From contig NZ_JAMXMX010000023.1 in NCBI RefSeq assembly GCF_024055725.1, forward strand, positions 1 through 64,000: DNA of 64,000 nt, given 5' to 3'. Within the stretch, counting starts at the first letter, position 1. Each line of letters begins with the position of its first letter. Positions 18,747 to 20,612 of the stretch are shown here, piece by piece. A program made the translations under genes and the position numbers. The notes beneath the pieces were generated by a model that did not search any database, was not told the DNA's origin, and saw nothing but the letters and a program-made list of their open reading frames with translations. The stretch is from Actinoallomurus spadix (GTDB lineage: Bacteria > Actinomycetota > Actinomycetes > Streptosporangiales > Streptosporangiaceae).

Positions 18747-19968
<1,222 letters not shown>

Positions 19969-20051
19969 CGCGAGTGTGCTCCTTCGTCGTACGGACCCGG
20001 CATGGCTCAACACGGCCGGATGCGCGGGGATTCCGGGCTAGGGGGGAAAGA

Positions 20052-20150
20052 TCAGCCCTGGCGACAGTCGTAGACGACTTCGGCGCGGCAGTGGCCGAAG
20101 AGGAAGTTCTGCACGGGCGTGACAACCCGGGCCGGGTTCGGGCGCGTCAT
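20052..20150 (-). CDS. Candidate 32-residue small protein between mec and cysO
   Basis: The frame starts ATG at 20150, 13 bp after the mec stop, and ends TGA at 20052-20054. The product begins MTRPNPARVVTPVQNFLFGH and ends CRAEVVYDCRQG, with two Cys spaced by eight residues and a His. 29 of 32 codons end in G or C, as in real genes here. I do not recognise a family. Possible roles are a metal- or sulfur-binding peptide, or a leader that senses cysteine through its Cys codons. No strong Shine-Dalgarno sequence is visible. Confidence 0.5.
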   Translation of the reverse strand: MTRPNPARVVTPVQNFLFGHCRAEVVYDCRQG

Positions 20151-20163
20151 GGTCGTCACGGGA

Positions 20164-20595
20164 TCAGTCTACCGAGTCGGGTTCGTACGCCTCCACGACG
20201 CGGACCTGCTCCTCGTCCACCTTCCCGGCGACGATGCGGTAGGAGCGGAACTCCGTCTCGTCGTCGTCGCGGGTGGAGACCAGCACGTAGTGCGCGTTCG
20301 GCTCCGAGGCGTACGAGATGTCGGTGCGGGAGGGGTAGGCCTCGGTCGCGGTGTGGGAGTGGTAGATGACGACCGGTTCCTCGTCGCGGTCGTCCATCTC
20401 CCGCCAGACCTTGAACTGCTCCATCGAGTCGAATCGGTAGAAGGTCGGCGAGCGCTCGGCGTTCGCCATCGGGATGAACCGGGTCGGGCGGTCCGAGCCC
20501 GCGGCTCCGGCGACGACGCCGCACGCCTCGTCCGGGTGGTCGGCGCGCGCGTGCGCGACGATCTGGTCCACGATGGCCCGTTCGATGGTGAGCAT
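20164..20595 (-). CDS. mec: JAMM/M67 metallopeptidase releasing cysteine from CysO
   Basis: The 143-residue protein has the full JAMM signature: Glu in DEACGVVAGA and H-x-H-x10-D in YHSHTATEAYPSRTD, binding catalytic zinc. Mycobacterial Mec(+) cleaves the CysO-cysteine adduct made by CysM, giving free cysteine and recycled CysO. It is the first gene of the operon mec - small ORF - cysO - cysM. Start ATG 20595 gives the family N-terminus MLTIERAIVDQIVAHARADH. Confidence 0.94.
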   Translation of the reverse strand: MLTIERAIVDQIVAHARADHPDEACGVVAGAAGSDRPTRFIPMANAERSPTFYRFDSMEQFKVWREMDDRDEEPVVIYHSHTATEAYPSRTDISYASEPNAHYVLVSTRDDDETEFRSYRIVAGKVDEEQVRVVEAYEPDSVD

Positions 20596-20612
20596 GCGCA
20601 AAGAGTATCGAC

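Follow-up and report, generated by a model that had tools for sequence, protein, structure and literature searches.

The short open reading frame that lies between mec and cysO in the window (the whole 64,000-nucleotide stretch of Actinoallomurus spadix DNA analysed here) is, judged by the way in which it has been conserved, a genuine and strongly conserved mini-gene. We think it probable, if well short of certain, that this mini-gene would serve as a leaderless regulatory leader peptide (a uORF) of the cysO-cysM transcript: in effect, a built-in gauge of cysteine. The leader family is not described in the libraries searched: the small peptide matched no model in Pfam or NCBIfam, and a search of Rfam returned nothing above the gathering threshold.

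The frame is carried by the minus strand (20052-20150), where it reads MTRPNPARVVTPVQNFLFGHCRAEVVYDCRQG and then stops. Twenty-nine of its 32 codons end in G or C and two encode Cys, just as the first-pass annotation, which placed the frame between mec and cysO, had recorded. From the surrounding sequence, however, the GTG at 20159 is the likelier start, and the product would then be 35 aa in length. The frame is flanked by mec on one side and by cysO on the other (Table 1), and the gap between its stop codon and the cysO ATG at 19968 is 83 nt. In the known pathway Mec frees Cys from CysO-Cys; compared with NCBIfam, the mec product of the window drew a desampylase-like model, with a score below the cut-off.

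Table 1. Position of the small ORF, its neighbours and the predicted signals around it (coordinates are those of the window).
Feature	Position	Strand	Basis or remark
mec, JAMM/Prok-JAB metalloprotease	20164..20598	-	PF14464, E 2e-33
-10 box TAGACT (TAAACT in most relatives)	20166..20171	-	overlaps mec stop codon; predicted leaderless transcript start
Putative leader peptide ORF	20052..20159	-	probable GTG start, 35 aa, MTTMTRPNPARVVTPVQNFLFGHCRAEVVYDCRQG
Conserved core VQNFLFGHCRAEVVYDC	20064..20114	-	alignment; 65 distinct nucleotide cores
Putative regulatory Cys codon TGT	20064..20066	-	65/65 distinct standalone cores
SigR/SigH-type promoter GGAAT-N18-GTT for cysO-cysM	20009..20034	-	downstream of leader; consensus match
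Hairpin ATCCGGC..GCCGGGT around SigR -10	19995..20021	-	in read-through RNA
GTACGAC, then cysO Shine-Dalgarno GAAGGAG	19979..19992	-	ACGAC could pair with GUCGU of leader end; weak
cysO, ThiS/MoaD-like sulfur carrier	19696..19968	-	PF02597, E 6e-18; ATG read
cysM, cysteine synthase	18747..19694	-	TIGR01136, E 1.4e-105

Conservation of the frame in related genomes, which the first-pass annotation had proposed to examine by tBLASTn, was readily detected, and far exceeds what chance would give: each of the eight genomes of the genus that were searched has the ORF at the equivalent place (E 1e-8 to 1e-19), and it is present at over 100 loci elsewhere, again between mec and cysO. A search of 60 relatives gave, besides the eight genomes of the genus, 13 further positives from the family (E < 0.1), always in the mec-cysO gap, while a scan of genome contigs confirmed 149 relatives, 80 of which were kept (among them Actinomadura, Thermomonospora, Actinocorallia, Planomonospora, Streptosporangium, Nonomuraea and others). 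The position between mec and cysO is common to all of the relatives kept and to every significant match from a scan of 395 genomes of the class. Distinct loci with a standalone ORF number approximately 100 in the window's own family (f1; this label, like f19, f39 and f50 below, is that of the search tool), and wherever enough sequence was available mec lies upstream and cysO-cysM downstream of the standalone ORF. Among the named relatives found, Actinoallomurus soli is the closest, with 97% identity over the part of the query that matched; in the genome of the window itself there is a single match (7.7e-19), the next (E 4) being noise.

The N-terminus of the peptide is free to vary and its C-terminus is fixed, with overall length ranging from 19 to about 60 aa. 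Alignment of 18 sequences defines a core, [PA]VQx[FY]LFxHxxxxVVYDC, in which Q, L, F, H, V, Y, D and C are invariant; between one and ten residues separate the conserved Cys from the stop codon, and in 78 of 101 loci there is exactly one. The first Cys of the window's peptide is not conserved (the position is occupied by C, S or T, and by S or T in most relatives); the second is kept. Among 65 distinct nucleotide cores dN/dS is approximately 0.22-0.26 in the frame of the peptide and greater than 1.2 in the other two frames, and the entropy of the core at the three codon positions is 0.22, 0.38 and 0.69. The dN/dS comparison suggested at first pass therefore came out in favour of the frame: by this measure the peptide is under purifying selection, with a dN/dS of about 0.25.

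In the window a TAGACT box stands 6 nt before the GTG at 20159. Of 102 distinct loci, 100 have a TAnnnT box followed at 6-7 nt by an in-frame ATG or GTG, compared to 8% of control starts inside mec; the box is mostly TAAACT, with GG ahead (logo GGTAAACT). A -35 consensus was looked for upstream of the box and none was found. In mycobacteria a -10 box this near to an RTG codon marks leaderless genes (PMC4633059), and leaderless starts are frequent among the leader peptides of S. lividans (PMC8079986). With a -10 box so placed, the mRNA should start with the peptide's own first codon. The spacing between the mec stop codon and the peptide is highly variable (-4 to +227 nt across loci), and the box thus keeps its place relative to the peptide and not to mec. 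For the same reason, and because a start box precedes the peptide, production of the peptide by a programmed frameshift from mec seems unlikely.

Analysis of the conserved Cys shows that its codon is TGT in all 65 distinct standalone cores (a count that ignores relatedness). In neighbouring genes TGT accounts for 7-8% of Cys codons: the ratio of TGC to TGT is 110:10 in the genes that neighbour the ORF in the window, and 415:31 in genes lying downstream at the loci of the cores. The first, non-conserved Cys codon of the window's peptide is TGC. Fixation of one synonymous codon fits a role in decoding; a role of the protein alone would not fix one. UGU and UGC are presumably read by one tRNA, for which UGU may be the slower codon.

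A parallel is provided by NF042934, an NCBIfam cis_reg_atten model (putative leader peptide, RxHVDLxRxxSAxC), which likewise describes a short ORF, often leaderless, ahead of sulfur genes, and whose members also lie between mec and cysO in family f19 and in genomes of the Streptomyces type. The window's family has a similar layout – its short ORF, too, precedes a sulfur-related gene and carries an invariant terminal Cys – and both peptides end near one conserved Cys with the codon TGT. Among the NF042934 leaders sampled (L251-L287), all 28 that were readable have TGT for the conserved Cys, and an earlier Cys is TGC in 14 of 14 (again, counts that ignore relatedness); we know of no description of TGT fixation at this position. 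The two are nevertheless unrelated in sequence, the window's family conserving Q, LF, H and VYD instead: the NF042934 model (cut-off 27 bits) matched neither the window peptide nor two relatives, and a Streptomyces-type leader at the same locus scores 37.8 bits. The genome of the window also contains seven leaders of the NF042934 type (L281-L287), four of them over the cut-off, which adjoin genes for a sulfite/nitrite reductase, a ferredoxin oxidoreductase, a thioredoxin-like protein, an MFS transporter and two solute-binding proteins.

Two further comparisons bear on the peptide. Mycobacteria possess leaderless polycysteine short ORFs (Canestrari 2020, via PMC9094748 and PMC13236596; candidates in PMC4633059) which share with the window ORF a leaderless start, the presence of a cysteine codon and a location upstream of cysteine-related genes; the window ORF differs in having one conserved Cys and no run of Cys, a long conserved peptide before that Cys, and a SigR-type promoter between leader and gene. 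The arrest peptides TnaC, SecM and MifM likewise combine a conserved C-terminal nascent chain with a variable N-terminus and the next gene in cis, but the window peptide is unrelated to them in sequence and has a Cys codon at the presumed stall site. On these comparisons, the window peptide would work like a cysteine leader, but it is neither a member of NF042934 nor a polycysteine ORF.

The gap between peptide and cysO contains signals of its own. Of 102 gaps, 82 contain the pattern GGAAx-N18-GTT, against 0.08% in shuffles; it is also present in most f50 loci and in none of the f39 loci read. Sequence of this type is the SigR consensus (PMC2375139, PMC9205884). A SigR/SigH-type promoter ahead of cysO-cysM would link thiol stress to the CysO pathway. 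The alternative that GGAAT..GTT is purely an RNA element was dropped in favour of the SigR-type promoter, although the surrounding stem is kept between its halves beyond expectation: the arms of the hairpin differ among loci and yet match, and halves from one locus pair better than halves that have been swapped (permutation p 0.0002; 22 dissimilar representatives). ACGAC is found before the cysO Shine-Dalgarno in 74 of 91 distinct upstream sequences, and in some predicted folds it pairs with GUCGU of the VVYD codons. However, because ACGAC is rare in the fused families (below) and also stands in half (9 of 18) of the f1 loci from which the motif is missing, its pairing with the leader end is a weak candidate. 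No conserved low-energy fold of the region as a whole was seen (folding energy is ordinary, with a mean z of about -0.2), and no terminator was found. In one locus (L008) an insert of ~160 nt, with terminal inverted repeats (GGGCGTGTCTGACAAATC / GGGTTTGTCAGACACGCCC), separates the peptide stop codon from the SigR-type promoter; the insert resembles a small mobile element.

Taken together, the predicted leaderless start, the UGU that never varies and the parallel offered by NF042934 speak for a leader that acts in cis and at whose Cys codon the ribosome would pause. If so, then transcription from the TAnnnT box would start at the start codon of the peptide and the ribosome would load at once, feed VQx[FY]LFxHxxxxVVYD into the exit tunnel, and reach the UGU cysteine codon, where scarcity of Cys-tRNA would lead to a pause, the nascent chain helping. 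Such a pause may alter the RNA before cysO, by way of the hairpin (19995-20021) and possibly of pairing by the VVYD codons next to the Shine-Dalgarno, and the altered RNA would in turn raise expression of cysO-cysM: this last is the weakest step. Under thiol stress, transcripts from the SigR-type promoter behind the leader would lack the leader and should thus bypass the peptide. A single Cys codon is few for a classical attenuator, and this counts against the leader reading, as do the ordinary folding energy, the failure to find a terminator and the distribution of ACGAC. The first-pass suggestion of a leader peptide that reads the supply of cysteine through its Cys codons accordingly gains support from the predicted leaderless promoter, purifying selection, the invariant TGT and the occurrence of NF042934 in the same slot, but would have to be narrowed to one codon, since only the second Cys is conserved.

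A second arrangement of the motif is evident in families f39 and f50. Here it belongs, in frame, to the tail of Mec (a Rv1334-type JAMM protease); the window's family, by comparison, has it as an independent ORF for which a start of its own is predicted. In f39 the motif is the last stretch of Mec (..AVQSYKFGHTPTSVVYDC..; matches in 54 of 61 genomes searched); in f50 it is the Mec C-terminus (..VVESYLFGHSPTTVVYD, followed by the stop codon; matches in 51 of 60). The fusion was read directly in 42 of the 43 f39 and f50 loci fetched, with cysO following in all, and the fused form is without the leaderless start. The Cys codon of the f39 tails is TGT in 20 of 20 distinct sequences (relatedness ignored). 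In every f50 tail read a stop codon directly after Asp replaces the Cys codon (TGA in L130): Mec in these loci (L130, L231-L250) ends ..SYLFGHSPTTVVYD and then stops, and the tail, although without Cys, is conserved at the protein level, with variable third codon positions. In one exceptional f39 locus (L225, from G456, at about 1500-1590) mec and the tail are two ORFs with a GTGA overlap, an arrangement that may represent either a recent split or coupling. It follows from the fusions that the peptide is not always a separate leader and, from the stop codon at the Cys position in f50, that in this family a cysteine codon cannot be what is read.

A function as the tail of Mec is the main rival to the leader reading. 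According to this explanation the peptide is a detached Mec tail – a small subunit acting in trans, or a docking peptide, with Mec, CysO or CysM as its binding partner – attached in f39 and f50 and separate in f1. The prevalence of the in-frame fusion, the conservation of the f50 tail as protein, and the presence of mec upstream of every standalone locus with enough sequence all speak for it; yet we consider it unlikely, because a protein role leaves the constant TGT unexplained, and because the leaderless start of the separate form ties the peptide to the transcript of cysO and not to that of mec. Moreover, AlphaFold models of fused Mec (monomers only) predict an unfolded tail and give no sign that it packs on the enzyme (pLDDT <50 at 138-154 in f39 and at 147-153 in f50), as expected of a peptide that functions as a nascent chain.

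The fused and separate forms would be reconciled if the nascent chain acted at the end of the ORF ahead of cysO, be it the small ORF or mec. One version of this dispenses with Cys-tRNA as the signal: VQxFLFxH...VVYD would stall the ribosome before whichever codon comes next (UGU, or UGA in f50), in response to some other cue, and so set the level of cysO. Such a peptide would act alike as a separate ORF or as a Mec tail, and the conserved residues do span 16 codons that end at Asp, with UGU or UGA the next codon; but the Cys does not vary in f1 or f39, and the UGU agrees with that of NF042934, both of which favour a cysteine signal, and we regard a different cue as quite improbable. With cysteine as the signal, a wider proposal can be entertained, namely that one motif is the nascent-chain cysteine sensor for cysO in two architectures (leaderless leader and Mec tail), and that a fixed UGU is the sensing codon common to actinobacterial cysteine leaders whose sequences are unrelated. 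We advance it tentatively, as possible but on the whole somewhat doubtful.

The other suggestion of the first-pass annotation, a sulfur- or metal-binding partner of CysO acting through two cysteines, fared badly: the ORF does adjoin cysO, but most relatives have S or T in place of the first Cys, and the second gives way to a stop codon in f50, so that this role is very improbable. Metal binding by the pair was ruled out on the lack of conservation of the first Cys. Least credible of all, to the point where we would give it almost no weight, is a chance frame in a promoter region that is kept only for its DNA signals: the SigR-type promoter and the -10 box indeed flank the ORF, but the low dN/dS is confined to this one frame, entropy differs among the codon positions as given above, and the same residues recur as part of Mec in families where the surrounding DNA differs.

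Taken as a leader, the peptide would represent a further, unannotated leader family among the regulators of the CysO-Mec-CysM cysteine pathway. Its signature is a conserved Cys codon that is always UGU, in the window's family as in NF042934, and a peptide that looks regulatory here belongs elsewhere to the adjacent enzyme, Mec. If cysteine leaders choose UGU for its slowness, then codon choice alone would mark the site at which such leaders sense.
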